Assembly (NCBI RefSeq): GCF_017921895.1 | Contig: NZ_JAFIDN010000001.1 | Span: 186,001-250,000 of the forward strand | Direction: 5' to 3' | DNA: 64,000 bases | Origin: Natronogracilivirga saccharolytica | GTDB lineage: Bacteria > Bacteroidota > Rhodothermia > Balneolales > Natronogracilivirgulaceae | Shown: positions 20,067-42,263 of the stretch, piece by piece | Numbering within the stretch: the stretch's first letter is position 1 | Layout of the letters: each line of letters opens with the position of its first letter | The notes under the pieces: model-generated | What the model was told of the DNA's origin: nothing | Seen by the model: only the letters and a program-made list of their open reading frames with translations | The model's database searches: none | Program-made: the position numbers and the translations under genes

Positions 20067-20094
20067 TGTTCTGAAATTTGGTGTGATAATCAAA

Positions 20095-21660: not shown

Positions 21661-21684
21661 AATTTCTGTTATTAATGGGTTCCT

Positions 21685-24854: not shown

Positions 24855-24868
24855 TGTAAGCGCTTACA
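24855..24868. promoter_or_regulatory. LacI-type operator upstream of susC (perfect palindrome)
   Basis: TGTAAGCGCTTACA is a perfect 14-base palindrome with the central CG typical of LacI/CcpA-family operators, where the hinge-helix leucine intercalates. It lies 180 bases ahead of susC. Likely ligand proteins are the two LacI regulators in this locus. Confidence 0.75.
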
Positions 24869-24973: not shown

Positions 24974-24987
24974 TGAAAGCGCTTACT
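24974..24987. promoter_or_regulatory. Second LacI-type operator upstream of susC
   Basis: TGAAAGCGCTTACT matches the first palindrome at 12 of 14 positions and keeps the AAGCGCTT core. Centre-to-centre spacing from the first site is 119 bases, compatible with looping by a LacI-family tetramer or with two dimers. Confidence 0.65.
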
Positions 24988-25331: not shown

Positions 25332-28244
25332 CTATTTGATCAGCATCATTTTTCGTGTGAAACGGTGTCCACCGGCATCCATCTTAATGAGATACGTGCC
25401 GCTTCCAAGCTGTGAGGCATCAAAAACAACCGTGTACGACCCTGCTTCGCGAAACTCGTTAACCAGTGTGGATACGCGTTGTCCGATAATATTATAGACA
25501 TGCAGCTTCACTTGTACGGCTTCCGGCAATTCGAAGGCTATATTGGTCGCCGGGTTGAACGGATTGGGATAATTTTGATCCAGTGTGAATCTCTCCGGCA
25601 GATCCGACGGATCCTGATCGATGGCGGCCGAGGTTGGAGTCAGTCCGGCAGGCGGGGTTTCTACCGGCTCACTGGTGAATATTCGAAACACTCCGGGAGG
25701 AAGAGACATACTGTAGGAATCCCCAACCATATCAGAAGAAACTTCAATTTCATCACCACTGAAGTAATCATACCAGGTGCCCTCATGTGTGAAGCGGGGA
25801 AATACATCCCGTTCAATCACTCCGAAGTTTCCGGTTATTGAAACATCCATGGTTTCATACTGCAGGGTAATTGTCTTGGACGCCGTATTCATGCCGTACA
25901 TTGCCACATCAGTAGCTGTGTCATGGAATACCGGGTTTTCGTGGCGCAATTTCAGCAGCCACTGCCACGTCTGATACAGGGCGTTTCGGTCCGGATCATC
26001 ATAGTAGTCCCAGCGGATGGGTTTTCGGGCTGTCCGGCCGGGGTCATCGGGTCGGCATTCTCCGTCAGTACCGTCTCCCGGTTTCAGACATTCATCCGGA
26101 CCACCGCCGTACCCAAGCTCTCCGAACTGCCAGATCATTTTGGGACCCGGAATGGTCAGGAAAAATGCCCCGGCCAGCTTCTGCCGGTCAAGTGCTGTTT
26201 CCAGTTCGGTAATGTCATAACCATCCATACTGTTCCCATAATTCAGGTTTTTGAACATCAGCCACTGTTCGTCGTGGCTCTCCATATAACCGATCAGGTT
26301 GGGTACATCCCATCCCCTGTTTTTATGATACACTCCGGAAAAGTTGGACCGGCTGCCGCCATGCCAGCCCATGGAAGCCTCGCTGTAATTATAGTTGTGA
26401 TTACCCCACAGCATCATGCCGGGCATCCCGTCATCAAGCCGGTATTCTGCCAGCTCCTTCTCTTCGGCGTTATCAGCAAAGTGCTCAAGGATAATGTAAG
26501 CTTCGGGATCAAAGCTCCAGAGTTCATCAGCCATCCGTTTCAGATTTACTATACGCTCCGGATTAGGTCCCTGCAGCAGGGCCCCGTCCTGAACGTTTGT
26601 CGCAAATCCTTTGGTCAGGTCAAACCGGTAACCGTCTACATTGAACTCCTCCATCCAGTACCGGTTGGCCCGGTCCATCCAGTACTTGATGAACGGATGA
26701 TCATGGTTCAGGTGATTGAATACGTTGAAAGCATGTCCGGGCCCTATGAGCGGATTTCTCTCACGGGATTCACCATACAGCCTGATCAGCGGAGATTGCC
26801 CGGTAGCATGATTGTAGACCACATCGAGTATGACCGCCATGTCACGCTTGTGAGCTTCATCAACCAGACGCCGGAACTCATCGGCTGGTCCATACGCCTT
26901 GTCCAGGGCCAGGTGAAAATTCGGGTTGTAGCCCCAGCTGTCGTTTCCGTCGAAGTTGCTGACCGGCATCAGCTCTATCGCATTAACCCCGAGACGCTTG
27001 AGATAGTCCAGGGTGTCAGCAAGCGATCTGTAGGTGCCATCCTCCAGGAAATCGCGGATAACGAGCTCGTAGATAACCAGTTCGGACTGATCGGGACGCT
27101 GGTAGTCAACGGACTGCCAGTCATAAGGCTCCTGTCCAGTCTGCATTACACTGACCATGTGGTTTGTTTTACCGTGGGGATACTCCTTCAGGTTCGGGTA
27201 GACACTTCCGGAAATGTACTGGTCATTCCATGGGGACAGGACTTTATGTGAAAACGGATCGCCCATCCGGATTTCCCCGTCAATGAGGTATTGAAAACCG
27301 TATTCGACGCCGGGCTCAAGTCCGTCAACAGTGATCCAGTACAGCACGCTGTCGGACCGGGCTGTTTCCCTTGCCATGAAATAATCGGATTCAGGTTCCC
27401 AGTCATTGAAATCTCCGATCAGGTAGACAAATTCTTTTTCCGGAGCCCAGAGCACAAAAGTAGCTCTGTCATCCTGGTCATGGTAATTGATCCCGAGCTC
27501 CATTCCATCCGGAACCGGTGCTTCGGTGACCGGCGGGCTTACGGTGGTGTGAAAACTGTTTTCGGCTTTGTTGCCCTGTGAATCTTCGGCTACTGCGGTA
27601 ATAAGAGCGCGGCCGGTTGCATCGATGTCAATATCATATGCCAGAAAAGCGGAATCACTCACTGCCACCACGTCATCGTTTAACAGGAGTTCTATGGATA
27701 TGATCTCATATTCCAGCGAGTTGGCACTCATCTCGACCTCAAGCAGCTCATCATCACTCAGAATCAAAGAGCCAAACTGGGGTAACGAAGGTTTGTCAAA
27801 CCGGACGACCACAAGTTCTGAATATATATCCACAAACAGATCACCGGTCTGGGAATTGCCGTCTGAGCTCCGGAATACAAATGCGAGCTGGTAGATACTC
27901 TCTGTATCGGGGGCATCATAAAAGCTGTAAATATCTTCAATGTGCAGTTCCCACAAATCCTGTCCGATCATGTCCAGTTCCGGCTGGACATTATTCTGCC
28001 CCCAGTTGCCTATGACATATTGCCAGGCACCGGAGTTTTTGTCCTGCTCGGTAACAATGAGTCCTGTATGGGCATAAAGACTGCCGGAGTAGCCTTCCAG
28101 GTTTGTATCCGAAGCATCAAATGTGATCGTAACCGGCCGGTCTGCCGAAGGGAAGGATGGTTCAGTGGTAATTTGTGCCGTGACATTCTGCACAAATGAG
28201 AATGTCAGCAGCATAAAAATCAAGGTATAATGAAATTTGTTCAT
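25332..28244 (-). CDS. T9SS-exported multidomain alpha-amylase (GH13), copy 2
   Basis: A 970-residue paralogue of the amylase at 14844-17765 with the same order: signal peptide (cut after NVTAQ), N-terminal beta domain starting EPSFPSADRPVTITF, Ig-like domain, CBM48/E-set domain (VYLIGDFNDWE), GH13 barrel, beta domain and T9SS type A sorting domain (NYPNPFNPATNIAFELP to the end). All three catalytic motifs are kept: VDGYRFDLTKG, AYIILEHF and MESHDEQW. The barrel is the most similar part and the Ig-like linker the least. Downstream of LacI copy 2 by 72 bases, mirroring the pair at 17-19 kb. Confidence 0.93.
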   Translation of the reverse strand: MNKFHYTLIFMLLTFSFVQNVTAQITTEPSFPSADRPVTITFDASDTNLEGYSGSLYAHTGLIVTEQDKNSGAWQYVIGNWGQNNVQPELDMIGQDLWELHIEDIYSFYDAPDTESIYQLAFVFRSSDGNSQTGDLFVDIYSELVVVRFDKPSLPQFGSLILSDDELLEVEMSANSLEYEIISIELLLNDDVVAVSDSAFLAYDIDIDATGRALITAVAEDSQGNKAENSFHTTVSPPVTEAPVPDGMELGINYHDQDDRATFVLWAPEKEFVYLIGDFNDWEPESDYFMARETARSDSVLYWITVDGLEPGVEYGFQYLIDGEIRMGDPFSHKVLSPWNDQYISGSVYPNLKEYPHGKTNHMVSVMQTGQEPYDWQSVDYQRPDQSELVIYELVIRDFLEDGTYRSLADTLDYLKRLGVNAIELMPVSNFDGNDSWGYNPNFHLALDKAYGPADEFRRLVDEAHKRDMAVILDVVYNHATGQSPLIRLYGESRERNPLIGPGHAFNVFNHLNHDHPFIKYWMDRANRYWMEEFNVDGYRFDLTKGFATNVQDGALLQGPNPERIVNLKRMADELWSFDPEAYIILEHFADNAEEKELAEYRLDDGMPGMMLWGNHNYNYSEASMGWHGGSRSNFSGVYHKNRGWDVPNLIGYMESHDEQWLMFKNLNYGNSMDGYDITELETALDRQKLAGAFFLTIPGPKMIWQFGELGYGGGPDECLKPGDGTDGECRPDDPGRTARKPIRWDYYDDPDRNALYQTWQWLLKLRHENPVFHDTATDVAMYGMNTASKTITLQYETMDVSITGNFGVIERDVFPRFTHEGTWYDYFSGDEIEVSSDMVGDSYSMSLPPGVFRIFTSEPVETPPAGLTPTSAAIDQDPSDLPERFTLDQNYPNPFNPATNIAFELPEAVQVKLHVYNIIGQRVSTLVNEFREAGSYTVVFDASQLGSGTYLIKMDAGGHRFTRKMMLIK

Positions 28245-28316: not shown

Positions 28317-29351
28317 TCAGGAAGTGACAGGTTTATCCTTAGTTTTCGTAATTCCGGCAAAATCCGGAGAGCTTGTACGGAGCACCAGGTCAGGTGAAAA
28401 AACGGTATGGGTAATATCGCTTTGCTTTTCTTCGAGGCGTTTTACCATTTTTTCGATGGCCAGAGCACCCATTTCATACATGGGCTGTCTCATGGTGGAC
28501 AGTCCGACATATTCAGAAAACTCAAGGTCGTCAAAGCCAATGACGGGGATTTTCACATTATTGTCACGCATAGCCTTGATGGCACCAAGAGCCTGAATAT
28601 CGGACGCACAAAAGCATGCCTGGGGAGGCTGTTTGTTTTGGATCAGTTTTGTCATTGCCTGATAGCCATTGTTTTCGGTAAAACCGTCACGCTCCATGTC
28701 GTCACCGGTCACGATCAACCCGGGGTCGACCAGAAGACCCGCATCTTCCATTGCCCGCCGGTAGCCCAGCCTGCGGTCGATTATCGGCTTGGAATCGGGC
28801 TTTGCGCAAATCATGCCTATGGAGGTGTACCCCTGTTCAATCAGATGGCTTGTAGCCGTATAGGCTCCTTCGATACTATCGACACTGATGGTATCAAAGC
28901 CGGGATAGTATTCGTCAATCAGTACAACAGGCACGTTGTATTTATCCAGCAGTTCCCACTCGGAATCAGCCAGGTGCACAGAAATGACGACGTACCCTTC
29001 TCCCCATCCCCGTTTCATGATATGATCGGCCTGGTTGAGCAGATCATCCGCGATTTTCACATTGAATATTTGCAGGTCATAGTCGTAGTCGGCAATTTTA
29101 TCCTGCATTCCGGCGAGTACTTCCATAAAAAAGTAGTTGGAGATCACCGGTACAATAACGGTAATAATTTTCGTCTTTTTTCTGGCCAGACTTTGGGCGA
29201 GTGCCCGTGGATGATATCCGAGATTTTCAGCCACAGCAAGTACTTTTTCCCGCGTCTTCCTGGTGACACTGCTGCTGTTATTGAAGACCCGGGAAACGGT
29301 AGCGATGCTTACTTCTGCTTCTCTGGCAATATCATAAATCGTTGAGCTCAA
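28317..29351 (-). CDS. LacI-family transcriptional regulator, copy 2
   Basis: A 344-residue paralogue of the regulator at 17916. HTH (TIYDIAREAEVSIATVSRVFN) and hinge (HPRALAQSLARKK) keep the same recognition residues as copy 1, while the surrounding residues and the C-terminal tail differ. Sugar-contacting stretches of the effector domain (VISNYFFMEVLAGMQDKIA, ICAKPDSKPIID) are nearly identical, so both may respond to the same sugar. The start codon is TTG, like copy 1. It is followed by the second T9SS amylase and preceded by the terminator of the 42-kb operon. Confidence 0.93.
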   Translation of the reverse strand: MSSTIYDIAREAEVSIATVSRVFNNSSSVTRKTREKVLAVAENLGYHPRALAQSLARKKTKIITVIVPVISNYFFMEVLAGMQDKIADYDYDLQIFNVKIADDLLNQADHIMKRGWGEGYVVISVHLADSEWELLDKYNVPVVLIDEYYPGFDTISVDSIEGAYTATSHLIEQGYTSIGMICAKPDSKPIIDRRLGYRRAMEDAGLLVDPGLIVTGDDMERDGFTENNGYQAMTKLIQNKQPPQACFCASDIQALGAIKAMRDNNVKIPVIGFDDLEFSEYVGLSTMRQPMYEMGALAIEKMVKRLEEKQSDITHTVFSPDLVLRTSSPDFAGITKTKDKPVTS

Positions 29352-29389: not shown

Positions 29390-29426
29390 TAAAGAGACAC
29401 GCGGGACCACGTGATTGTGGCCCCGC
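29390..29426 (-). terminator. Terminator after the 1004-residue T9SS protein gene
   Basis: On the minus strand GCGGGGCCAC pairs with GTGGTCCCGC (10-base stem, one G-U, 6-base loop), followed by a modest T-rich tail (TGTCTCTTT). It closes the operon that begins at 42178. Confidence 0.7.
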
Positions 29427-29451
29427 ATGTCAGAACAGATACAGAGCAATG

Positions 29452-32400
29452 CTATTTCACGAGCATCATTTGTCTCTGCTGTACAAAATCGCCTGCCTGC
29501 AGACGATAGATGTACATGCCGGATGCCAGCCTTGATGCATCAAACTGAACAGTATGTGTACCGGCATTTTTGTATGTATTGACAAGTGTCGCCACCCGCC
29601 GACCGAGTATATTGTACACTTCCAGCCGCACATCATGGCTTTCCGGAATGGTAAATTCAATATTTGTGGTCGGGTTGAACGGGTTGGGATAGTTCTGTCT
29701 CAGGTTATACGTAACCGGAGTGTCTATGCGGGCATCCTCTGAACTGGTAAGCAGTGCTCTGTAATCAGGAGCAGCTTCAACGGTCAGGCCTTCATCGTTG
29801 AAGTTTTCACCGCCATACCATGTCAGTACATCGAGATCAGGTTCAGCCGGCCAGTATGATACCAGAATACCATCAAAATCAACGACCTGTGTTGGCATGG
29901 CAAACTGATAGTAGCGTCGTCCGCTTCCGAAACCACCGCCATTCCAGGTAATTGTTCCTTCGCCAATATTGGGCTGTCCGTAACCGATGATGAACCCGAA
30001 TGAGTTGACAGACGGGAGCTGGGCATCTACCGTGATTTCGTAGATTCCGTCGCCATCCACATCCTCAAGCAGGTAGTTTTCATTGCGCTCAATATTGGAA
30101 GCATCCTCAACAGATCCCGGCCCTGTGCCAAACCCTTGAGAGAAAGCAAAGATCTGCTCTTCAAAAGCGATGAAGACCGAATCCTCACCAGGAACAAACC
30201 TGTCTTCTGCATCAGGTATTTCGGTTGCACGGGTCATGTCGATACGGAAAGTGATCGGCCATGTTTCCGGCTCACCTTCAATAAACTCCTGAAGGATTAC
30301 CGAGGCACCCGGAAGGTCATTGAAGTAATCATAGCCCGGATCATCCGGATAAGTGGTCTGCTCGGCATCTTCAGTCACGAAATATATACGATCAGAACCA
30401 CCGGTCGTTCCCGGCTCTTCCCATCCGGCGCCTTCGGCATCAAGACCGGGGATGTAGTTCGGGCTTTCTGAATCTTCGCGGGATTCATCCCAGAGAATAA
30501 AGTACTTGTATGCGTAACGCTGTCCAACGGAGACGAGGTCACCGCCGGAATAGTCCCGGGTGATCTGGTAACGGTCGAGGGTCGGGTTGAAGGTCAGTTC
30601 ATCACCTCCGGCCCAGCTGTTAAAGTTGCCGCGAAGTTCTACCCCGTCGATGGCATCATCAAAGATCCCCAGGTTGGAAAGTACGTTGACGTTGACGGCA
30701 AACTGAATGTCGGCTTCAATGAGCTCAACTTCATCCGGTGACGGTTTCTCACCGCTGAAAAAGCCGTACTGAAGTGTTGTGTCGGCAATTTCACCAAACC
30801 GCACTGGCCGGTCATCACCATCTTCCCAGCCGATGCCATCAATGTCGGTTACAAACTTGAAGTCAAATCCACCTTCTTGTTCAATTATATCCTCAGCGGC
30901 ATAAAAAACACCGGAGTAGAAAATATTATCTGATCCTTCCATTCTGCTTTCCTTATTGAGAAAGAACAGGGTTTCATCCCAGTCAAGGGGCGGTTGTCCG
31001 CGGACACCAACTCTGTCTTCATCGGTATTGAACTGGCCTTGCTGCACCTGAGCGCCGATATTGACCCGGAAGTATATGCCAATGGAATCGGCTTTTTCTT
31101 CAAAGAGTTCAACCTGGTTGTAGAAGAGCAGATCACTGGCAATGATTCCAGTCTGGTCATCAGGAATGACAAACATACGGTCATCTCCGCCTTCCCATCC
31201 GCCGTTGGCAGTTGGTTCTTCGGGATCCAGAGAAAACCCGGTCCAGAATTTGAAGATTATGGTATCACCCGGAGCACCGCTGATGGTTGCCTGCCAATAG
31301 TCGCCCCCGATATTTTCAGCCAGAACCGGGCTGTCAGCACCCCAGGTCAGACCGGCAGGGGAATAATCACCGCGTACCTGTACGACATCTTCTGCACGAA
31401 GGGTGTCGGGCACGGTTGCTGCGTTGAAATTAAGCACAACAGTAACCGCCTCGAGTGCCGGAGTGATGTCAAATTTAGCTACGGCATTGTTGGTTCCAAC
31501 CACATACAGCATCTGATTGTCTGCATCCAGCTCAATACTGCCGACGCCATTAAGATTTTCCTCGTCGCCAAGTTGTGCTGTGCGGCCGATTTTTGCGATA
31601 TTTTCAGCATCGGTAACATCGTAAATGGCTACGTACTGTCCCTCAGGCTCGGTATCGGTCGGGAATAATGCAGCGATACTGCGATCACCGATCTGGGCGA
31701 AGGAAACTTCCATGGTTTGATAAGGAATAGCCGTTTCTGGCACCTCGAGAAGAACATCGCCGCTTTCCAGATCTACAAGTGTCAGCGGGGTGCCGTATCC
31801 GTTGATCCAGACCTGATCCTGTCCGTCAACCGAAGCAAAACCGCCGCGTGCGTATCCGGCCGGGATGTCCTCAATCAGACCATCGGTGTAGGTGTCGTCC
31901 TGCTTGTCGCGTGTCAGGGTAAAAATGGCATCATTGCCGGTGCCACTGGCCATGAGCACAACCTTGTCATCGTCTTCGTACATACCGAAAGAATCCCCCA
32001 TACGCGTGCTGTTCGGATTCCCTTCGAAGGCCAGTGTCGGCTCGCTGTCCTCATCGGCCCATCGGTACAGGCGATAATTGGAACCGGGAACCGAAAGATT
32101 GGCGGCATAAATTACACCATCACTGGCTACCTTGATGAGATTGATGGGGAAGTCTCCACCGGAAACGCCTTCCATGTCCAATTCACCTGTAACCGAGCCG
32201 TCATCAGCATCAACGACATAAATTGCCGGTCCGCCGGTGCGGCTGACTACCAGCAGATTGCCTGTAACAGGGTTCAGACTTCCGCCCCTCATGGTGTTGT
32301 CAGCAGTCACCCAGTCTTCTTCTTCAAAGCCGATTTTCCACTCGGCATCGGAGAGTTCCACTTGTGCCTGGGCCGTATTCAGCGACCAGGAACAAAGCAG

Positions 32401-32466
32401 AGTCAGTGCCAGCAACGCTGCCAGCGACCTGAATGACCGTTTGATACTACGGTAAACAGTATTCAT
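29452..32466 (-). CDS. T9SS-exported protein with propeller-like N-terminus and four carbohydrate-binding-like modules
   Basis: A 1004-residue secreted protein. Signal peptide 1-35; residues 36-340 have the repeated short-strand pattern of a beta-propeller (LLVVSRTGGPAIYVVDADDG, SIELDADNQMLYVVGTNNAV). Four beta-sandwich modules follow at about 341-450, 461-570, 586-716 and 737-870. The third reads like a starch-binding CBM20/CBM48 domain (VELRGNFNSWAGGDEL, RYAYKYFI), the first has VRGDYSPAGLTWG, and the first three end in a GWE..G.DR-type turn. A T9SS type A domain (921-1004) ends the protein. No catalytic triad is visible, so it is probably a surface glycan-binding protein doing the job of SusF-type proteins. 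Function is inferred. Confidence 0.8.
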   Translation of the reverse strand: MNTVYRSIKRSFRSLAALLALTLLCSWSLNTAQAQVELSDAEWKIGFEEEDWVTADNTMRGGSLNPVTGNLLVVSRTGGPAIYVVDADDGSVTGELDMEGVSGGDFPINLIKVASDGVIYAANLSVPGSNYRLYRWADEDSEPTLAFEGNPNSTRMGDSFGMYEDDDKVVLMASGTGNDAIFTLTRDKQDDTYTDGLIEDIPAGYARGGFASVDGQDQVWINGYGTPLTLVDLESGDVLLEVPETAIPYQTMEVSFAQIGDRSIAALFPTDTEPEGQYVAIYDVTDAENIAKIGRTAQLGDEENLNGVGSIELDADNQMLYVVGTNNAVAKFDITPALEAVTVVLNFNAATVPDTLRAEDVVQVRGDYSPAGLTWGADSPVLAENIGGDYWQATISGAPGDTIIFKFWTGFSLDPEEPTANGGWEGGDDRMFVIPDDQTGIIASDLLFYNQVELFEEKADSIGIYFRVNIGAQVQQGQFNTDEDRVGVRGQPPLDWDETLFFLNKESRMEGSDNIFYSGVFYAAEDIIEQEGGFDFKFVTDIDGIGWEDGDDRPVRFGEIADTTLQYGFFSGEKPSPDEVELIEADIQFAVNVNVLSNLGIFDDAIDGVELRGNFNSWAGGDELTFNPTLDRYQITRDYSGGDLVSVGQRYAYKYFILWDESREDSESPNYIPGLDAEGAGWEEPGTTGGSDRIYFVTEDAEQTTYPDDPGYDYFNDLPGASVILQEFIEGEPETWPITFRIDMTRATEIPDAEDRFVPGEDSVFIAFEEQIFAFSQGFGTGPGSVEDASNIERNENYLLEDVDGDGIYEITVDAQLPSVNSFGFIIGYGQPNIGEGTITWNGGGFGSGRRYYQFAMPTQVVDFDGILVSYWPAEPDLDVLTWYGGENFNDEGLTVEAAPDYRALLTSSEDARIDTPVTYNLRQNYPNPFNPTTNIEFTIPESHDVRLEVYNILGRRVATLVNTYKNAGTHTVQFDASRLASGMYIYRLQAGDFVQQRQMMLVK

Positions 32467-32524
32467 AGCTTCCTCTTTTTTATTTGTTGTTATTTTACGG
32501 TGTTATCCGTGTTTGTTGGTTTTG

Positions 32525-33556
32525 TCAAAATGCAACTGATGCAGAAATCCGGTTTGTCCCTCCCAAATGCTCATGCTGCTGGTAGGCATAGCCGAAATCC
32601 AGTGCCAGGTTATTGCCAAAGGAGTATTTCAGCCCCGCACCAAGTGCAAACTTGTACATTCTGTCTTCCTGAGGCAGACCAATTTCGGGAATCCCTCCCC
32701 GGAAAGTGATCAGTTCATTCAGGAATGCCAGTTCGGCAGCCACGCTGAGATTCTGGTAGTTGTCGCTGGGACTTTGCCCGGAAGCCATCAGGCTTACCCG
32801 CATGTTTTCGGTATCAAATGCGTGCCAAAGAAGACCGGCGCTGAGCCCGAGCGGCAGATCAAAGCGGTCCGTGTCGAGATTGGCCGGGATTTCACTGTTG
32901 TTACCGCTGGACGACCTGTCTACATCAGCAGGAATTAGCAGATCATCTCCCAGCATCCGGAATTTTTGTCCGAAATTGGTCACGCTCACACCAAATACGA
33001 TATCATCAAACGGTGTGACATAGGTGGTCCCGATGTCAAAGGCTATGCCGCTTGCGGATGTATTCCATATGGTTTCATTGATGAACTTGACATTGGCACC
33101 AAGTGAGAAGTTGGGCAGAAGCTTGAGGGCATAGCTGACACCGGCGGCATAACTGTAGGCGCCGAACATCCTGCCAGTACCATCCGGACGGTCAAATGTT
33201 GTCTCCTCCATATCATCCATCGTCATGGCCGTAATATTCAGTCCGATCCCCGAGTTTCCGTTGATCGGCAGAACCACGCCCAGATATGAGTGCCGGATAC
33301 TGGCAAACAGTTCTGCATGGTCCAGCATAACTTCGGGCCGGTCAAACCCGGTAAGTGCAGCCGGGTTCCAGCGCATGGCCGACGGGTCATTGACGGATGC
33401 GGCAACAGCGCCTCCCAGTGCTGCAGATCGTGCTCCTACCGGCATTTTAAGAAAGTTTCCGGCGGTGGTTCCGGTCTTGCTGACACTCTGAGCGGCAACG
33501 TCTGCCATCCCGACAACAAGGATTAAAAAGAGAGTTATAAAAATTCGTGCTTGCAT
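32525..33556 (-). CDS. PorV/PorQ-family outer-membrane protein
   Basis: A 343-residue predicted 14-strand outer-membrane barrel of the PorV/PorQ (UPF0164) family. Signal peptide 1-22, then the family block TAGNFLKMPVGARSAALGGA and the pattern NDPSAMRWNPAAL. PorV shuttles T9SS substrates from the translocon to their attachment site. Here the gene lies between two genes for proteins with C-terminal sorting domains, 18 bases after the first and 58 before the second, which suggests a shuttle dedicated to them. Core T9SS genes (porK, L, M, N, sov) are not in the window. Confidence 0.88.
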   Translation of the reverse strand: MQARIFITLFLILVVGMADVAAQSVSKTGTTAGNFLKMPVGARSAALGGAVAASVNDPSAMRWNPAALTGFDRPEVMLDHAELFASIRHSYLGVVLPINGNSGIGLNITAMTMDDMEETTFDRPDGTGRMFGAYSYAAGVSYALKLLPNFSLGANVKFINETIWNTSASGIAFDIGTTYVTPFDDIVFGVSVTNFGQKFRMLGDDLLIPADVDRSSSGNNSEIPANLDTDRFDLPLGLSAGLLWHAFDTENMRVSLMASGQSPSDNYQNLSVAAELAFLNELITFRGGIPEIGLPQEDRMYKFALGAGLKYSFGNNLALDFGYAYQQHEHLGGTNRISASVAF

Positions 33557-33574
33557 GATTATTCTTGTTATGGA

Positions 33575-36500
33575 TTACTTAATCACCGCGAATCTGCTGA
33601 CATGTTCGCCGATACCTGGTACCTCTATGTGGTACACGTAGACCCCGTATGCCAGCTCAAGATTATCTTTGGTCAGCATATCCCATTTGTAGGTACCATT
33701 GAAGGTATTTGACTCAGTCAGCTCAATGGTTTGCACAAGCTCCCCGGACACCGTGAAGATCCTGATGGTACCGGGTACCGGAAGCCTGGTAAAATGCAGT
33801 TCCCGCACCTGATCGGGTCTTGCCATCGTGGGTGCCGGTTCATAAGGGTTGGTCGCTATGTAAGGATTGGGCACCACACGTATCCTTTCGAGGTCATCCC
33901 TGATTTTTTCATTATCAACCATGCCCACCTGGATGTCCGACATGCGAAACTCAAACACATCGAGAGAGGTGAACGGTTTTCTGGTGAAGACCTGCAGGGT
34001 ATCACCGGCGCGCGGATTCCGGGAAATTGCGGTGCGGTTGGAACCCGTACCCTCTGTAGTGGGATTCATGAAGAGCGTCCAAGTCAGTTCGCGCTGAACG
34101 TCCCCAACCGGCTCGTAAATAAAGATCTGATCCCTGCGCATGTTCACAAAGGGGCCCTGCCTTACCGGGCCCGCACTGAATTCGCCGGGCTCGGTTTCGT
34201 TGGGATCATTGGCCGTTGCCGTGGGGTTGTTGTGAGCGTCATTCAGGGCAAACTCCACCTCAATCGGATTTCCGTCATCATCGGTGATGGAGGTATTGAA
34301 AATCCGGAAGTTGACATCTTTTTGAGGTAAATCAATTCCGGCATAGGTAGTATCAATGGACTGGTTCACACCCAGCTCATCGAATACCACCAGATAATCG
34401 GATGCTCTCGGAGTTCCCTCCAGGAAGAAAGCAAAGGGGTGGACTCCCTGCTCGTATTCCTCATTTTCCAGCCACCCGGATCTCTCCATATTGACGCTCA
34501 GCTCCAGTTCGGCATTATCAAGTGTCAGACGGAACCCTTCCCTGACGGGATTATCTTCCATATTGAAGTTTTGTGATTCCCTGATGAGGGAGTCTCCGGT
34601 GGAAATGTTGAGAAGAGAGAAGTTTTTGGTTCGAAGTGTATCGGGACGGTCATCACGGCCTGACGGAATCAGTGTGTCTTCGAAGACGACCCGGTAAAGG
34701 TCATCCACCCGTATTTCCCGGGGATCGATGACTTCCACAAAAACACGTCCGCTGGTGGTCCCCCGGACAGGAGTAGCTTCCGGGTTTTCCGGATCGATGT
34801 AACCGGCCTTGGATGCCGCGGGTGTGACCACATTTACGTTGGGCCCGGTATCAACGCTGCCATCCGGATTGATGCTGATGAAAATCGGCGATTCGGACGG
34901 GGCAATGTCATTTTGCACATTACCAAAACTGTACGATGTTACCGCATAGTAATAGCGGCGGCCGTTTACCACATTTTCATCCACAAATTTTCTTTGCAGA
35001 CCGGAGTTGGATCCGAGGTTGAATTTCACCCCGTTGATATCGACCGGATGCAGTCCGGACCATTCGTTTTCCAGGTCAAAAACGGCCAGCGGCTGACGGA
35101 AAATTCTGTTGCCGCGGGCATCTGTAATGTTAAGAATATCCTGAAAGCCGGGATCCGTGGAGCGGTAGACTTTGTACCCCTGGAAGTTTCGTGCATCGGC
35201 TTCGGTATTACCCGGCAGCCGGGACAAGTACCGGTCAAAATGTTCTTCCGCAATGTCATCCCAGTAGAGTGTTACCCGTCCGTCACCGGCGACTGCCGTT
35301 ACATTCGGCGCTGGAGGAGCCGTTGCAAACTGGTAGTCGGCTTCGTAGGCATTGAACGCCTCATCCAGGTTGTCATTGACTTTGTCCCGGTCTCCGTCTG
35401 GTGCATCATAATCCGCTATGTTGGTTTGGGCGACGGTAATAGCTACAGAGAAGCGCTCGGTTTGTCCGCGCTGCAGAGGGAACAGAGATGAAGTCACCAG
35501 AATGTCGGTATCATCTCCGGGCTGGGCTTCATCACCCAGGTTACCCGGGAGCATCCGGTTTCTCCAGAATGCACCGTCGCGGGCAAAAGAAGGACCGTCA
35601 CCCAGGGACCCTGCGAGCGGGAAGGTTACCGAGGAAATCCCGATCATATCGGATTCTGCCACACTGGTTTTGTCAATATTCGGTTCACCGGGAAACGGGG
35701 TACCGGCACCGGATGTCGGGAAGCCGTCACCCTCACCACGTGCACCACTGAATGGCACGCCGTCCAGCCCCACATCATCCTGCATGGCATCCCAGGCCTT
35801 GTTGTTGTCAAAATAGTCCTCCCGCGATTCGTCAATCATCGGAGCCGAAGTGTGATGATTTCGGAAATAGTTGTCGAAGGCGCCGGGCGAGCGGTAGCCG
35901 CCGTTGACATGTACAAGGTTGAGCGCTTCCTGATAATCGAGGATCAGATTGCGGAAATTCTCATCTTCTGCCATCCGCTCACGTATTTTCTGATTGGGCA
36001 CGATCAAACCGCGCTGAAGTGTATCACCAACTTCGTACTGATCCCACATGTAGTTGATGTAGCGAACCGGACGGCGGAAAAAGTCGCGCTGAGCTCTGTC
36101 AAAGAACTGCTTCTCCAAATGCAGTTCCTCGGTCTCATCTATCAGTCCGTTCAGTGTATTGTCAAAAAGGTCGGAATTGGTAGCATCAGGGAACAGGTCA
36201 TTTGTTCCCTGATCAGCATCTTCGGTCAAGTCGTAGCAGCCGCCGTTCAGGGTGAACTCTCTTCCCTGACTTGTAAATGTTCCGCCACCTTCCGGATATT
36301 CGGTAATGATCCGGCTGTGATCATCATCTATCAGAACAATGCGATCGCCGGGACAGATGCGGCGGGTACCGAAGTCATTCCTTTGAAATTCGGGAATAAC
36401 TTCCATAAACAGCACATTCTCATTCTGAAAGAAACCACCATTGCTTTCGAGAAGCGGAGCCATCAGGTCGGGATTGTCCGGATTGTAATATCCGCTTCCG

Positions 36501-37519
36501 GGCAGATAGTTATCGCTGTCGCCATCGTTGTCGATACCGTCAATGGAATTGCCCGGTGTTTCCAGAAACTGGATTCCTGCCATTCCAACCCGCGTATCAC
36601 CGAAATGGGACCGCCCTGTACGAGGCTCAAGATGCGTCAGATAGGAAATGGCTGAGCGCTCATCGAATTCGGGAAGATCGTTGCCGCCTCCTCCGACCAG
36701 GTCGGCAATCCAGAGCGTGAATGCCATCCGGTCATAGTCAAATGAACCGTCGTTCCGGATCTCGAAAATATTGAAATGGACATCATTGATCAGAGTCTGT
36801 GACCATGCCATGATTCGGGCATCTATAATCAGTCCGAGACCGCCGCGAGAGGGGTCGGTCAGATCAGGACGGAAAAGGTTGTCGGGGTTGGTCGGTTCGG
36901 AAAACCGGGTGTACTCGTTTCCGCTGGCCCGGTAGAAGAATTCCTGATCGGCGCTGAACTGATCTTTGCCGAAATAGCCATTCCAGGATCCGCTCCAGCC
37001 GGGATCGGTCTCATCATCCATCTTGTCCGGCCAGACACTCGGCCAGGTTTCCGGACGGTCGCTGCGAGCAAACTGCTCAGGAACGGCGGGGTTGTAGTAC
37101 CCGGGAACCGGGTTCATATCCCAGCTGCTTCCGTCGGGGGATTCTCTTCCATTTGGTGTAAGTACGATGGGGAACTGCTCCGGTCCCGTTTCGGCCTGAT
37201 TATTTACTTCTGCGCCTACAAAAAAGGCGACAAGTGCAATATAGACCCGGTTGGTATTTCTGGGGAATTCATAGGTTACCTCGTCAACGGCATCACCGTC
37301 AAGACGTCCGCCCCACCCGAAATTATGATAGGTAGCACGCAGATTATTCCCGTCCAGGATCATCTTGCGGCGGGCTTCGAACGACCCTCTTTCATCGCCG
37401 GGTTGGTGATCTGTGTCGCTGCCATTCTGGCCCGATGAAACATCCTGGACAATCAGCAGAAGCGCAAAAAGTAAAAGAGAACTTTTAAGCATGGTTCTTG
37501 AAAACAGATATGATTTCAT
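33575..37519 (-). CDS. Large secreted surface protein with C-terminal sorting-like domain
   Basis: A 1314-residue secreted protein of unknown function. Signal peptide with the hydrophobic stretch SLLLFALLLIVQ (an ATG at residue 10 is an alternative start). The N-terminal 700 residues are Asn/Asp/Gly-rich with no family I recognise. A fibronectin type III-like unit starts PPAPNVTAVAGDGRVTLYWD and includes YKVYRSTDPGF and YYYAVTSYS. The C-terminal 102 residues (VVPNPYIA, GTIRIFTVSGELVQTI, AYGVYVYHIEVP) have the shape of a T9SS sorting domain though not the NYPNPFN form. It follows the TonB receptor by 21 bases, so the two may form a surface pair. Confidence 0.8.
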   Translation of the reverse strand: MKSYLFSRTMLKSSLLLFALLLIVQDVSSGQNGSDTDHQPGDERGSFEARRKMILDGNNLRATYHNFGWGGRLDGDAVDEVTYEFPRNTNRVYIALVAFFVGAEVNNQAETGPEQFPIVLTPNGRESPDGSSWDMNPVPGYYNPAVPEQFARSDRPETWPSVWPDKMDDETDPGWSGSWNGYFGKDQFSADQEFFYRASGNEYTRFSEPTNPDNLFRPDLTDPSRGGLGLIIDARIMAWSQTLINDVHFNIFEIRNDGSFDYDRMAFTLWIADLVGGGGNDLPEFDERSAISYLTHLEPRTGRSHFGDTRVGMAGIQFLETPGNSIDGIDNDGDSDNYLPGSGYYNPDNPDLMAPLLESNGGFFQNENVLFMEVIPEFQRNDFGTRRICPGDRIVLIDDDHSRIITEYPEGGGTFTSQGREFTLNGGCYDLTEDADQGTNDLFPDATNSDLFDNTLNGLIDETEELHLEKQFFDRAQRDFFRRPVRYINYMWDQYEVGDTLQRGLIVPNQKIRERMAEDENFRNLILDYQEALNLVHVNGGYRSPGAFDNYFRNHHTSAPMIDESREDYFDNNKAWDAMQDDVGLDGVPFSGARGEGDGFPTSGAGTPFPGEPNIDKTSVAESDMIGISSVTFPLAGSLGDGPSFARDGAFWRNRMLPGNLGDEAQPGDDTDILVTSSLFPLQRGQTERFSVAITVAQTNIADYDAPDGDRDKVNDNLDEAFNAYEADYQFATAPPAPNVTAVAGDGRVTLYWDDIAEEHFDRYLSRLPGNTEADARNFQGYKVYRSTDPGFQDILNITDARGNRIFRQPLAVFDLENEWSGLHPVDINGVKFNLGSNSGLQRKFVDENVVNGRRYYYAVTSYSFGNVQNDIAPSESPIFISINPDGSVDTGPNVNVVTPAASKAGYIDPENPEATPVRGTTSGRVFVEVIDPREIRVDDLYRVVFEDTLIPSGRDDRPDTLRTKNFSLLNISTGDSLIRESQNFNMEDNPVREGFRLTLDNAELELSVNMERSGWLENEEYEQGVHPFAFFLEGTPRASDYLVVFDELGVNQSIDTTYAGIDLPQKDVNFRIFNTSITDDDGNPIEVEFALNDAHNNPTATANDPNETEPGEFSAGPVRQGPFVNMRRDQIFIYEPVGDVQRELTWTLFMNPTTEGTGSNRTAISRNPRAGDTLQVFTRKPFTSLDVFEFRMSDIQVGMVDNEKIRDDLERIRVVPNPYIATNPYEPAPTMARPDQVRELHFTRLPVPGTIRIFTVSGELVQTIELTESNTFNGTYKWDMLTKDNLELAYGVYVYHIEVPGIGEHVSRFAVIK

Positions 37520-37540
37520 AGATAACTGAGTAGAAATAAA

Positions 37541-40390
37541 TTAGAAGGAGACTTCAATTCCGAACTGCACACGGCGGGGTTCGGTATAGAAAAACGGATT
37601 GTCGTAATACCCGGGATCAATCTGTGCCGGCTGGTTTTCCGGCAGCGGTTCATCAGCGGTACCTGAGTCAGCAAAGACAAAGTTTACATTACGGGTATCG
37701 AGCAGATTGTAGATATTCAGATTGGCGCGCAACGTCGCACCCCCGATTTCCATACCCCTGTAAAGATTGATGTCAAAAGTGAGCCCATCAGGCTTTCGCA
37801 GACTGTTCTGCTCAAAATAGGTCAGAGAAGTTATCCCGGTGCGCGTTGAATAAGTGGCATCGGCCGTATAGGGTTCACCGCTTTGATAGCGGCCGATCAG
37901 ACTTGCGCCCCAGTTCTGGCTTGCAAAAAACATGGTTGCATTGAGCTGATGGCGGCGGTCCCAGTCCAGCGGCTGCAGCATCTGCGTCAGTGCGGTTCCC
38001 GTAGTATCTCCCCGGGAAACAGCAGCATTGAATTCGGCCTGCGGATCGGAATTGGTGCCTTCGGCAACCATAAAGGTATAATCAAACAGCATGTTGATTC
38101 TGCGGCCGAGCTGCTGCGTCAAAGTAGCTGTAACACCTTTTACATTGGCGTAGTCGCGGTTCACCCAGGTTCCGTACCGGATGCCGGGATTGGAAGTGAG
38201 TTCGGTTGGTCCGGATGAAATCCAGTCACGTATATCACGGTAAAAGCCGCTTACCTCAAGTACCGTACCGGGAATCAGCTGCTGCTGCAAGCCCAGTTCA
38301 TACTGGATGGTCTGCTGCGGTTTCAGGTCCGGATTGCCATACACCCCAAAGATTCCCGATGTCTGCGGCATCACTATCCGGTCTCCGTTGTAAAGCCGCT
38401 CATATTCCGGTAACTGCAGAAAGTATCCGTAAGAAAAGTGGATGACACCGGTTTCGCTGATGGGATAGGCCACACCAAGGCGCGGACTCAGCTGGAACTT
38501 CGGATCCGCCGAGGTCCAGAAATCATCATGACGGTCATTTGGTAATTCAAAGAGGTCAGGATCCTGCGAATCGGCCGGTATGCGGCCGTTTGGCTCAAAA
38601 TATTCAAACCGGAGGCCGGCGTTGATAATCAGGCTCTCATACTCGATGCGATCCTGAATAAACGCACTCAGGAGCCAGGGCCGGCGGGTGTAGTATTCTC
38701 TTCTTCTGCCGTCGCGGATAGGCACTCCCAGATCATCGGTATCCGGAAGAGGATCAATATTCGGCCCTACCGGCTGAAGCGAAAATGCATCTCTTTCGAT
38801 TACATCCTGCTGAAACTCCACCCCTGCTTTGATCTGGTGGACAGGGTTGATCTGACTGGTGATGTCTCCCTTGAGGATATATGTGGTCGTAGTTCGTTCT
38901 TCCACATAATTATCTGTTCCGATGATGCTGAACCTTCCTGATCCCCCGGCATATCGTGACGGCAGTTCCGATATCCTGTCCGGATTGAAATAACGCGGAT
39001 CATTCAAATCATCAAAGAGCCGCTGTTCAAAGTGATTGGTACGCATTGCGGCATTGAAGTTCATGTAGGTGTTTGCACTCGGCGTGATGGTAGCGCGCAA
39101 ATTATTGTAGTAGCGCGTGCGGTCAAATGTGGCTACACCTCCCGGCACCAGCCGGTTGTTATGGCCTCCTCCGGCATCACCTTCCTCGATAGAGTAATTT
39201 CCGATAAGATTAAGCCGCAGCCCGCGGAACACATTCCACTGCAGGTTGTATTGTCCGGTGAAAGAGTTGAACTGCTGCATCGGAACCCGCGTACTGTCCC
39301 GCTCGCCCGAGTCGGTGTAATAAATCCAGTTGTCGTCTTCGTTGATGATATCAATCCAGGGAAGATCACCATCAATGCGGTCGCCAAAGCGATTGACAGG
39401 ATTGTCCCTTGGTACTCTTGGAAATTGCGGACGGCCGAAATCATCCGTCCCTTCCAGCATGGGACCGTAAGGCGTGTAGGCGTTTCTGCCATAAAACCAC
39501 CCGTCGGTTTCAAAATAGCGTCCGCTGACAAAGAACGTCAGCCTGTCCCGCATCACAGGCCCGGAAAGGCTTCCTTCGATATTGTATTGGTTTGAGAGTC
39601 TCAGGTCGCTGATATTATGGGCAACACCATCGTATAAATGGCGGTCAGCAGACAGATAGTCCCCTGCCCATGTTCTGATGCTCCCCTGATAGTTATTGGA
39701 TCCGGCCCGTGTCGTAACATTGACGATTCCGGACATGGCCTGACCGTACTCGGCGTTATATGCGCCGGAAACCACCTGAAGCTCCTCAATATTCTGGTTT
39801 TCTATGCGCACTCCCAGAGAGCGGTCAAAATCGTCGGTCACGCGTATTCCATCGACGATATAGGCTACTTCTGTTGCACGGCCGCCGCGTATGTGAATCT
39901 GTCCGGTGCTGCTTTGCGTTACCCCGGCCTGAAGGCTGAGCACATCCCCTACTTCCTGAACAGGCATGGCTGACAGCTGTTCTCTTGATACGCGGGATTC
40001 CGAACTGGTACGGTCGCGGGTGACGATGTCTCTGGTTGCCTGTACTACGATTTCCTGACCTTCAAAGACGGCTTCCTGCAATACGATATCAAGATTGGTA
40101 CGCAGGTCGCTTTGCACCAGAACATCTTCGATAAACTTGGTTTGATAACCGATGTAACGGACAACAAGGGTGTATGTTCCCGGCCGCACATTGAGAATCC
40201 GGAAGTTGCCGTCCAGGTCGGTTGATGCACCCCGGTCTGTTCCTTCGATCATGACATTGGCACCGATAAGCGGTTCGCCGTCATCGGCATCGGTTACTTT
40301 TCCCGATATGAATCCCGCTTGCGCAAGGGCTGTTCCGGCGGTAAAGAGTATCAGAAAAAGAGTAATGTGAAGTCTGTATAGGTGTTTCAT
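37541..40390 (-). CDS. TonB-dependent outer-membrane receptor without SusD partner
   Basis: A 949-residue TonB-dependent receptor. Signal peptide cut after ALAQ, a carboxypeptidase-regulatory-like domain (FISGKVTDADDGEPLIGANV), a plug (VGDVLSLQAGVTQ, IHIRGGRATEVAYIVDGI, EYGQAMSGIVNVTTRAG), and a barrel ending in Phe (VQFGIEVSF). It lacks the SusC-specific plug signature and has no SusD next to it; instead the 1314-residue surface protein follows. The substrate is unknown. The LacI-type operator in front of the operon suggests an alpha-glucan-linked role. Confidence 0.9.
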   Translation of the reverse strand: MKHLYRLHITLFLILFTAGTALAQAGFISGKVTDADDGEPLIGANVMIEGTDRGASTDLDGNFRILNVRPGTYTLVVRYIGYQTKFIEDVLVQSDLRTNLDIVLQEAVFEGQEIVVQATRDIVTRDRTSSESRVSREQLSAMPVQEVGDVLSLQAGVTQSSTGQIHIRGGRATEVAYIVDGIRVTDDFDRSLGVRIENQNIEELQVVSGAYNAEYGQAMSGIVNVTTRAGSNNYQGSIRTWAGDYLSADRHLYDGVAHNISDLRLSNQYNIEGSLSGPVMRDRLTFFVSGRYFETDGWFYGRNAYTPYGPMLEGTDDFGRPQFPRVPRDNPVNRFGDRIDGDLPWIDIINEDDNWIYYTDSGERDSTRVPMQQFNSFTGQYNLQWNVFRGLRLNLIGNYSIEEGDAGGGHNNRLVPGGVATFDRTRYYNNLRATITPSANTYMNFNAAMRTNHFEQRLFDDLNDPRYFNPDRISELPSRYAGGSGRFSIIGTDNYVEERTTTTYILKGDITSQINPVHQIKAGVEFQQDVIERDAFSLQPVGPNIDPLPDTDDLGVPIRDGRRREYYTRRPWLLSAFIQDRIEYESLIINAGLRFEYFEPNGRIPADSQDPDLFELPNDRHDDFWTSADPKFQLSPRLGVAYPISETGVIHFSYGYFLQLPEYERLYNGDRIVMPQTSGIFGVYGNPDLKPQQTIQYELGLQQQLIPGTVLEVSGFYRDIRDWISSGPTELTSNPGIRYGTWVNRDYANVKGVTATLTQQLGRRINMLFDYTFMVAEGTNSDPQAEFNAAVSRGDTTGTALTQMLQPLDWDRRHQLNATMFFASQNWGASLIGRYQSGEPYTADATYSTRTGITSLTYFEQNSLRKPDGLTFDINLYRGMEIGGATLRANLNIYNLLDTRNVNFVFADSGTADEPLPENQPAQIDPGYYDNPFFYTEPRRVQFGIEVSF

Positions 40391-40450
40391 GTTGTTATTT
40401 GCTGATTTCTGTCGGTCACAGGAGGTAAGGACCCGTTATGCTTTTCTTTG

Positions 40451-42178
40451 CTACAGTTTCAAATCCACTTCATCAATGCGGTCGTAATGCACCCTGGCAT
40501 TGTGCCGCTCTTTGGTCTCCCCGATAATATTCCTGCGCATTTCCATGACATACATTTCAGTCAGGTTATTCATTATCCGGGGCTTAGCCTCTTCAAATGT
40601 CATGGGTTCGGCTTCGCGGACACCGAGGCATTTAAAGAGAAAAATCACATCGCTGGTCATCTCAAACGGCCCTGCAAGTTCACCCGGCTGGATTTCAGAC
40701 AGCGCAGGTGATATCGATCCGAAATTGGAAACCGGTGTATATCCTATTTCACCGCCCACCTGCTTGGCTTCCTCGTCGAATCCGTACTTCATAAGTGCAT
40801 CCTGAAACGACATCCCTGCCTGAATGGCGTCCCAGGCTTTCTCGGCGGTATCCATATCGCGTACAGCCAGTTCGGCTACATTCACCTCTCTCGGATACAT
40901 GTACTGGTCGGGGTTATTGTGATACTCTTCTGCCAGCACATGGGCGGGTATTTCCACTTCAGATTCTAGTGTGCGGTACAGCCTTCGGTTCAGATAGTTC
41001 TGGAAGGTATTTTCTACCGAAAGGGCAACCAGCTCTTCATCATAATGCGGACTGTTTTCATAGGCGTTCATAGCATAGGCACGATAGGCAACACCTTCGA
41101 CCAGATTCCTGAAGCTATGCCGGTTGTCGATATTCCGGCGTGTTTCAAGCGGTGTGTACCAGGTTTCCTGAAGAAGCATTTCCACCGTAAGGTCGAATCC
41201 GTCGTGTGACGCCACTATGCTGCCGTAATACTCCTGCGGGACGCGCGAGTGAAAACCCTCGGTTTCGACATCGGCAACAGGATCAACGCCAAGATGTCCG
41301 TCCAGCCACTCCCGGAGATCCGCAAGCAGCTGCTCGTCAAAGCTGTAAGCATCAATTATCTCATCCATATGCTCCCGTTGACGCAATTCTGCTTTTTGCC
41401 GGATGGCCAGATCACGGATACGGTTTTTGTTCTGAGCATACTGGTATTCCGTGATGATAGGAGTCGTGATCCGGTCGGTCACCTTGATGATGCTGAAACC
41501 GCGGCTGGTTCGCACCGGGTCGGAAATTTCTCCGACAGCCATGGAGTAAGCCGTGTTTTCAAAGCCGACATCCATATCATCCACCGTGAAATATCCCAGG
41601 TCGCCGCCGGACTCTCTCAGCGACTGCGAATCAAATATATCGCGGGCAAGTTGTTCAAAGCTGGCACCGTTTTTTACCAGCTGATGCAGCGAGTCGGCCG
41701 TTTCCCGGTCCGGTGCATATAAATGTGAAGCACGGAGATGGGTATTGTAACGCAGAAACAGCTCTTCAAGATCAGACTCTTCAATGCGGATATCAGACTT
41801 CAGAAACGATTCCCTGAACTCATCCATCATAACCTGTCGGTAAATCAGGTTTTTCTGATGCAAGCCCTCATAATCTTCGTGCCAACCCTGATCAATTCCG
41901 TGCTGAACGATGGAGTAAAAGCTTACTCTCTGGTCGAGGATTTCTCTCAACACCGACGGGGTTACCTGCAATGCCTGTCCCGAGCGATCAAATACATTTC
42001 TGAACGCACCGAGAAATTCCTCGCTGGTAACGGTATAGTCGCCGATCTCCGCCATGGGCAGCACCTGCTCCTTGTCTGATGACTTACGGGAACAGGAAAG
42101 CGGCAGTGTGACGAGGATTAGCAAAACAACTGTCAGTACGGCATGCATGACAGGCAGAGCGGGCCGATCATTCATCAT
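40451..42178 (-). CDS. SurA/PpiC-type peptidyl-prolyl isomerase lipoprotein
   Basis: A 575-residue periplasmic chaperone-like lipoprotein. Lipobox PLSC (Cys29, LTLPLSC region), a SurA N-domain-like helical part (residues 45-140), and two parvulin rotamase-like domains: about 150-240 (LRASHLYAPDRETADSLHQL, GGDLGYFTVDD) and about 430-525 (EVNVAELAVRD, GGEIGYTPVSN). Residues after the Cys (SRKSS) are not acidic, which fits a periplasm-facing lipoprotein. As the first gene of the operon with a TonB receptor, a PorV-like barrel and two secreted proteins, it may help fold those barrels and surface proteins. Confidence 0.85.
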   Translation of the reverse strand: MMNDRPALPVMHAVLTVVLLILVTLPLSCSRKSSDKEQVLPMAEIGDYTVTSEEFLGAFRNVFDRSGQALQVTPSVLREILDQRVSFYSIVQHGIDQGWHEDYEGLHQKNLIYRQVMMDEFRESFLKSDIRIEESDLEELFLRYNTHLRASHLYAPDRETADSLHQLVKNGASFEQLARDIFDSQSLRESGGDLGYFTVDDMDVGFENTAYSMAVGEISDPVRTSRGFSIIKVTDRITTPIITEYQYAQNKNRIRDLAIRQKAELRQREHMDEIIDAYSFDEQLLADLREWLDGHLGVDPVADVETEGFHSRVPQEYYGSIVASHDGFDLTVEMLLQETWYTPLETRRNIDNRHSFRNLVEGVAYRAYAMNAYENSPHYDEELVALSVENTFQNYLNRRLYRTLESEVEIPAHVLAEEYHNNPDQYMYPREVNVAELAVRDMDTAEKAWDAIQAGMSFQDALMKYGFDEEAKQVGGEIGYTPVSNFGSISPALSEIQPGELAGPFEMTSDVIFLFKCLGVREAEPMTFEEAKPRIMNNLTEMYVMEMRRNIIGETKERHNARVHYDRIDEVDLKL

Positions 42179-42249: not shown

Positions 42250-42263
42250 TGAAAGCGCTTACA
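42250..42263. promoter_or_regulatory. LacI-type operator upstream of the PPIase-TonB-PorV operon
   Basis: TGAAAGCGCTTACA matches the perfect operator upstream of susC at 13 of 14 positions. It lies 72 bases ahead of the start at 42178, inside an AT-rich stretch suitable for a promoter. This links the 29.4-42.2 kb operon to the same regulators as susCDE. Confidence 0.7.

Follow-up and report, generated by a model that had tools for sequence, protein, structure and literature searches.

A five-gene unit on the minus strand of a 64,000-nucleotide stretch of the Natronogracilivirga saccharolytica genome (G000, C1:186001-250000; the window hereafter, with positions counted from its first letter) seems to provide a second route of starch uptake that has not been described so far, and, in relatives, one for other glycans. 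The unit encodes a parvulin-type peptidyl-prolyl isomerase (PPIase) lipoprotein, a TonB-dependent receptor, a large secreted surface protein, a PorV/PorQ-family outer-membrane protein and a surface protein of the type IX secretion system (T9SS), which we call PPI, TONB, BIG, PORV and T9A. We consider it probable, at roughly three in four, that the unit is an interchangeable outer-membrane cassette that takes up starch or maltodextrins and matches SusCDE in function, while being built on a different core. An earlier reading of the window, made from its sequence alone, had proposed a glycan-handling system in which BIG takes the place of SusD; this is borne out by the way the unit tracks amylase genes, by a conserved operator and by a SusCDE operon at the same locus in relatives. 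The glycan role of the unit is thus well supported, and from sequence comparisons we strongly infer that this role is one in uptake.

Of 60 relatives, 45 had matches to BIG, and where contigs were long enough (loci L070-L096) the order ispG-PPI-TONB-BIG-PORV-T9A-lacI-GH13a is kept across all five Balneolales families. The gene order of the unit is therefore non-random, being kept in all five families and beyond. The site is flanked by ispG and a rhomboid gene on one side and by lacI and the amylase gene GH13a on the other; G007, G036 and G056 instead have SUSC-SUSD-SUSE between ispG and lacI1-GH13a. The exchange can be followed within a single genus, where G036 has the Sus version and G046 the BIG version while the flanking products are 94% (IspG), 81% (rhomboid), 82% (LacI1) and 67% (GH13a) identical. 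A divergent BIG cassette without PPI occupies the same site in G046, G054 and G059 (L092, L093 and L112), and G000 and its relative G006 hold both cassettes side by side. Comparison of pairwise distances over up to 23 loci gave correlations of 0.982 for TONB-BIG, 0.975 for BIG-PORV, 0.93 for BIG-PPI and 0.91 for BIG-T9A, vs. 0.56 for BIG-lacI1 and 0.59 for BIG-GH13a (range 0.56-0.64 for the TonB-BIG-PorV triad against LacI and GH13a). Because correlations are high inside the cassette and low with its flanks, the cassette is inherited as a block that changes independently of its neighbours. At one locus (L108:4478-5632, in G051) the interval from ispG to lacI1-GH13a holds a sole SusE/SusF-like gene, accompanied by two adjacent copies of the operator, which may be a decayed or minimal cassette. 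Second GH13a-like genes, with open frames of 1645-1703 residues, were seen away from the cassette in three genomes (G054:C8:260329, G057:C16:44007 and G033:C18:173379).

The sequence-only reading suggested asking whether the gene order tracks amylase genes, and it does. Among 85 Balneolales genomes that are at least 90% complete, 40 have BIG and 21 a starch-type SusD, and only G000 has both. GH13a is present in 39 of the 40 genomes with BIG, in 20 of the 21 with SusD and in 9 of the 25 with neither. Put differently, BIG or SusD occurs in 58 of 67 amylase-positive vs. 2 of 18 amylase-negative genomes. Fisher tests that ignore phylogeny give p = 3e-6 for BIG against SusD and 3e-9 for either cassette against GH13a, and the exchange within genus g18 together with the f1 case points to at least two separate changes.

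A LacI-type operator, TGAAAGCGCTTACA (minus strand TGTAAGCGCTTTCA), lies upstream of PPI without mismatches (42250-42263), in a search for which 0.06 matches are expected by chance in the window. Around it is a promoter-like site (42270-42243), with the operator in its spacer; the hexamers of this site are assigned by consensus match only. A perfect operator, TGTAAGCGCTTACA, is also found upstream of SusC in the window (24855-24868), accompanied by a second copy with one mismatch (24974-24987). Conservation of the operator, another point on which the sequence-only reading could be checked, is high: allowing at most one mismatch, 25 of the 26 Balneolales BIG cassettes have it ahead of their first gene, as do six SusC cassettes (in G000, G007, G036, G056, G044 and G055) and the SusE-only locus; it was not found at three SusC loci (L096, L110 and L111). 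The congeneric genomes G036 (Sus) and G046 (BIG) have two operator copies with an identical spacing of 217 bp ahead of different cassettes. Perfect-class operators are rare, with only four sites in the 3.75-Mb genome, and, of the two outside the window, one precedes the gene for a GH57 T9SS enzyme and the other lies close to that for a 254-residue T9SS protein with weak X25/AMPK-CBM similarity. These two sites (L127:8022 and L128:8220, i.e. C3:322022 and C9:13220 of G000) are likely the remainder of the starch regulon. We infer that lacI1, assigned to the LacI family by its family match and conserved beside either cassette (28317-29351, minus strand), itself regulates the cassette.

All five predicted open reading frames are present on the minus strand with the coordinates and lengths first assigned to them. 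They are separated by gaps of 60, 21, 18 and 58 bp, within the 18-60 bases first claimed, and the unit is closed, as had also been proposed, by a strong intrinsic terminator (29396-29431, minus strand; a 15-pair hairpin with 10 GC pairs, z = -3.9). PPI (40451-42178, 575 residues) has a PPIC-type rotamase domain (Pfam Rotamase_3, PF13616, E 4.2e-23; also PF13145, Rotamase and Rotamase_2) and a lipobox, LPLSC, read from its sequence, and has orthologues at the same position in relatives. It is an optional member of the cassette, since the subtype at L092, L093 and L112 lacks it, as do over half of the distant loci. TONB (37541-40390, 949 residues) consists of CarboxypepD_reg, plug and barrel domains. 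It scores 104 bits against the SusC model TIGR04056, below the cut-off of 368, whereas the real SusC of the window scores 741; together with the finding that none of the five proteins contains a SusD domain, this agrees with the earlier description of a TonB receptor without SusD. PORV (32525-33556) belongs to the PorV/PorQ family (NF033709, 159 bits, cut-off 90) but falls well short of canonical PorV (NF033710, 55.5 bits, cut-off 250). It is a non-canonical paralogue and may serve BIG as a shuttle or anchor of its own. Canonical PorV is encoded elsewhere in G000 (C12, L066; 297 bits on NF033710), as are PorQ, a PorV2-like protein and the SprA translocon (TIGR04189, 1575 bits), which identifies this as a T9SS-bearing genome and PORV as an extra copy. 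PORV does not match the PorP/SprF model TIGR03519, as a partner in a type B C-terminal domain (CTD)/SprF pair would, and its match to the BamG model is weak (21.8 bits, cut-off 250).

T9A (29452-32466, 1004 residues) ends in a type A sorting domain (TIGR04183, 47.7 bits, cut-off 23). According to its model and fold searches, its N-terminal part is beta-propeller-like in G000 and variable elsewhere, and is followed by putative starch-binding modules and the CTD. The profile of its conserved core (residues 320-911; 29734-31509, minus strand) has as top PDB matches the CBM20 starch-binding domains of glucoamylase (E 0.0011), and orthologues contain CBM20, CBM48, CBM53 and AMPK1_CBM by Pfam. By profile and in orthologues, the modules noted as carbohydrate-binding-like in the sequence-only reading are CBM20-like, and the core is predicted to carry starch-binding modules.

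BIG (33575-37519, 1314 residues) forms the core of the family. It starts with a signal peptide, as read from the sequence, and its conservation peaks at residues 30-345 and 560-900. Searches with BIG found essentially no Pfam or NCBIfam family and, by profile, no PDB relative, with only Fn3 appearing at E 0.12. Its model is mostly beta (predicted local distance difference test 76, which is moderate; predicted template modelling score 0.65), and a fold search with it gave nothing below E 1e-3, only FnIII tandems. The idea that BIG is a cryptic SusD was rejected, as neither a SusD domain nor, with a model of moderate quality, a SusD-like fold match was found. The last 105 residues form a well-defined and distinct CTD subfamily (33578-33892, minus strand) with the pattern PNPY...IRIFTVSG...WDMLTKDNLE..YGVYIYHV...GKFAVIK. 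This region does not match the T9SS type A models TIGR04183 and PF18962, and reaches FlgD_ig only below the cut-off (5.5e-4). Two other units in G000 (L062:3975-11791 on C8 and L063:6502-14231 on C9) encode a TonB receptor, a protein of about 704 residues with a sorting-like CTD, a PorV paralogue and a lipoprotein of about 430 residues; their similarity to BIG is only partial, and they represent a sister kind of triad. In G028 (L087:3201-8216) there is an additional BIG-like gene (946 residues) with a PorV gene in tandem, and the identical scores of the G028 PorV copies against PORV of the window suggest a recent duplication of the BIG-PorV pair.

The window itself contains a genuine SusC-SusD-SusE operon (19008-24675), about 5 kb downstream of the unit and unmentioned in the sequence-only reading. 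Downstream come lacI1 and GH13a, then the SusCDE operon and more lacI and GH13 genes, the genes given here with coordinates being on the minus strand. GH13a (25332-28244) is, by its domain matches, a GH13 alpha-amylase with CBM48 and a T9SS CTD. The comparison cassette, which belongs to the same regulon, consists of SusC (21685-24675), a starch-type SusD (20095-21660; NF033071, E 4.6e-131; SusD_RagB, E 9.5e-40) and a SusE/SusF-like starch-binding lipoprotein (19008-20093; PF14292 and PF16411). An Rfam scan found no RNA.

In a wider sample of 394 Bacteroidota genomes (GTDB sense), a profile of the N-terminal part of BIG has matches in 137, about a third; the family is often present there in more than one copy, with a maximum of seven matches in one genome. 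Two Rhodothermia loci (L184 and L183) have the order rhomboid-ispG-lacI-PPI-TONB-BIG-PORV-T9A-GH13a-GH13, and a Neomarinimicrobiota locus (L057) reads GH13-PPI-TONB-BIG-PORV-T9A. Outside the Balneolales, 40 loci were sampled: BIG is directly followed by PORV in 39 of them and directly preceded by TONB in 37, and the remaining cases come down to a contig edge, spurious open reading frames and one unpredicted PORV. At least 29 of these 40 loci have a glycan gene nearby, although not every neighbour was annotated; such neighbours include GH13, CBM20/CBM53, GH16 with GH3 and CBM9, GH9, GH53 with GH35, GH5 with GH3, and sugar ABC/MFS genes. Two loci are candidates for galactan: at L171 the TonB-BIG-PorV cassette lies beside a T9A with a weak CBM20 match, a GH53 galactanase and a GH35 beta-galactosidase, and at L172 the one neighbour tested is a weak GH5-like match. 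Whether the TonB-BIG-PorV triad constitutes a separate, widespread glycan-importer architecture parallel to SusCD seems to us evenly balanced; in such an architecture a TonB pore would have an extracellular lid or receptor that is exported by the T9SS and held by a dedicated PorV paralogue, and the importer would serve starch, beta-glucan, galactan and other glycans and be exchanged as a cassette with SusCDE, in Rhodothermia, other Bacteroidota classes (GTDB sense), Neomarinimicrobiota and Calditrichota. We also considered whether the published Rhodothermus marinus xylan polysaccharide utilisation locus (PUL; Rmar_1070-1072, PMC6987092) hides a BIG triad, and this was refuted, as there is no BIG or PorV there. 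In G067, the genome of L184, the region around GH67 contains LacI, enzymes, a TonB receptor, T9SS proteins, SusC, SusD and three further enzymes, an order that fits the R. marinus PUL (PMC6987092, Table 1). Within this PUL of G067 (L211:12151-19038), a distant TonB receptor is accompanied by a T9SS protein and by one weakly similar to PPI, with no BIG or PorV, which is possibly another SusD-free arrangement.

The unit seems to work like a Sus system. We propose that TONB would be the energised pore and that BIG would stand in for SusD at the surface, capturing or gating the glycan. The T9SS would export BIG by means of the C-terminal signal that BIG itself carries, with PORV acting as the dedicated shuttle of BIG, as its permanent membrane anchor, or both. 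T9A would contribute starch-binding modules in the role of SusE/F, and PPI may be an optional folding aid. Transcription would be controlled through a LacI-type operator common to SusCDE and the starch regulon, and the related TonB-BIG-PorV triads seem to have other glycans as substrates.

Several observations weigh against functional equivalence of the two cassettes or against parts of the mechanism. Nine genomes have the amylase with neither cassette, and when counted by genus the BIG/SusD pattern reduces to a handful of independent changes, to which the Fisher tests are blind. The operator was not detected in G020 or at the Neomarinimicrobiota and Melioribacteraceae loci tested. No glycan-binding domain or fold could be recognised in BIG by profile and fold searches, and its CTD bears only weak likeness to type A CTDs (hhalign E 6e-4, probability 28%). 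Finally, G000 carries both systems, which are therefore not simple substitutes there. This last point, like the side-by-side arrangement shared with G006 and the operator at both cassettes in G000, would fit a division of labour in which the cassette and SusCDE import different alpha-glucan products (e.g. long starch or glycogen pieces vs. maltodextrins or cyclodextrins), both under the starch regulator, so that replacement reflects a change of niche. We regard this as possible but unlikely, given that 84 of the 85 near-complete genomes have at most one cassette and that the same amylase and regulator accompany either one.

How PORV acts allows for a variant of the proposed mechanism, in which it would not shuttle BIG but hold it beside TONB as a permanent, anchoring subunit. 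This variant is drawn by analogy with the beta-barrel assembly machinery (BAM) of Bacteroidota, where the FadL-fold protein BamG anchors surface-exposed BamH (PMC12611786; PMC12578637), and type B CTD proteins likewise pair with PorP-like proteins to be anchored at the surface (PMC9143113). The strict co-inheritance of BIG and PorV and the duplication of the pair in G028 are in line with it, whereas PorV in the strict sense shuttles type A CTDs (PMC12618676); on balance we find the anchor plausible, if slightly less so than its absence. A general secretion or surface-assembly module, accessory to the T9SS or BAM, with carbohydrate genes nearby by chance, could account for the widespread and multi-copy occurrence of the triads and for the two distant loci (L180 and L197) of 40 at which no glycan gene was seen among the neighbours annotated. 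The sequence-only reading took this role to be indicated if the order were common away from carbohydrate genes, which, those two loci aside, is not what was found. We rejected it as very improbable on the LacI operator, the carbohydrate-active enzymes (CAZymes) and CBMs beside most distant loci, and the replacement by SusCDE at the same site. Finally, TONB shows weak NCBIfam similarity to heme and siderophore receptors, as expected if it were an ordinary receptor in a chance or hitch-hiking cluster. Its scores are far under the respective cut-offs (94 vs. 324 bits), different classes keep the gene order with its short gaps, and the unit has an operator of the starch regulon, which makes this explanation barely credible. 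Equivalence with SusCDE remains our preferred reading.

SusCD pairs count as the defining feature of Bacteroidota PULs, and PUL prediction relies on them. If our interpretation is correct, many glycan-uptake loci are now missed in Rhodothermia, Ignavibacteria-like lineages and neighbouring phyla. The same-site exchange offers a natural test of cassette equivalence, and the pairing of BIG with PorV would make the role of locus-linked PorV paralogues directly testable.

Within open-access full text, with subscription journals and preprints outside the scope of the search, we found no description of the arrangement. Its components recall several known systems. A FadL-family barrel paired with a large surface protein is shared with BamG/BamH of the BAM complex, which in B. 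thetaiotaomicron also includes PPIase lipoproteins (PMC12611786; PMC12578637); unlike that complex, the unit has no BamA, only a weak BamG match, and a linkage to glycan genes. Type B substrates are handled by PorP/SprF proteins encoded adjacently (PMC12618676). As in such pairs (e.g. SprB/SprF of F. johnsoniae), the gene for the surface protein lies immediately upstream of that for its own FadL-like shuttle or anchor; here, however, this protein belongs to the PorV/PorQ family, BIG has a CTD closer to type A, and the pair is coupled to a TonB receptor and CAZymes. PORV shares its family (NF033709) with the canonical PorV/PorQ proteins of the T9SS, from which it differs in falling below the curated PorV cut-off and in being an extra, locus-linked copy. 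Proteobacteria such as Xanthomonas and Caulobacter have TonB-dependent carbohydrate receptors without SusD and thus resemble the unit in SusD-free, TonB-dependent glycan uptake, but to our knowledge their systems include no co-encoded large surface protein, no PorV shuttle and no T9SS. Compared with SusCDE itself, TONB is under the SusC cut-off, there is no SusD homologue, BIG is far larger, beta-rich and equipped with a sorting-like CTD, the putative starch-binding protein has a T9SS CTD, and the unit brings its own PorV-family protein and often a PPIase. As the signatures of SusC and SusD are lacking, the name Sus system would be wrong for it. What it does share with SusCDE is an outer-membrane TonB receptor with a surface partner and a putative starch-binding protein, the co-located CAZymes and local regulation that go with a SusCD-type PUL core (GH13a and other GH13 neighbours, LacI and the operator), and, in relatives, the same chromosomal site and operator.

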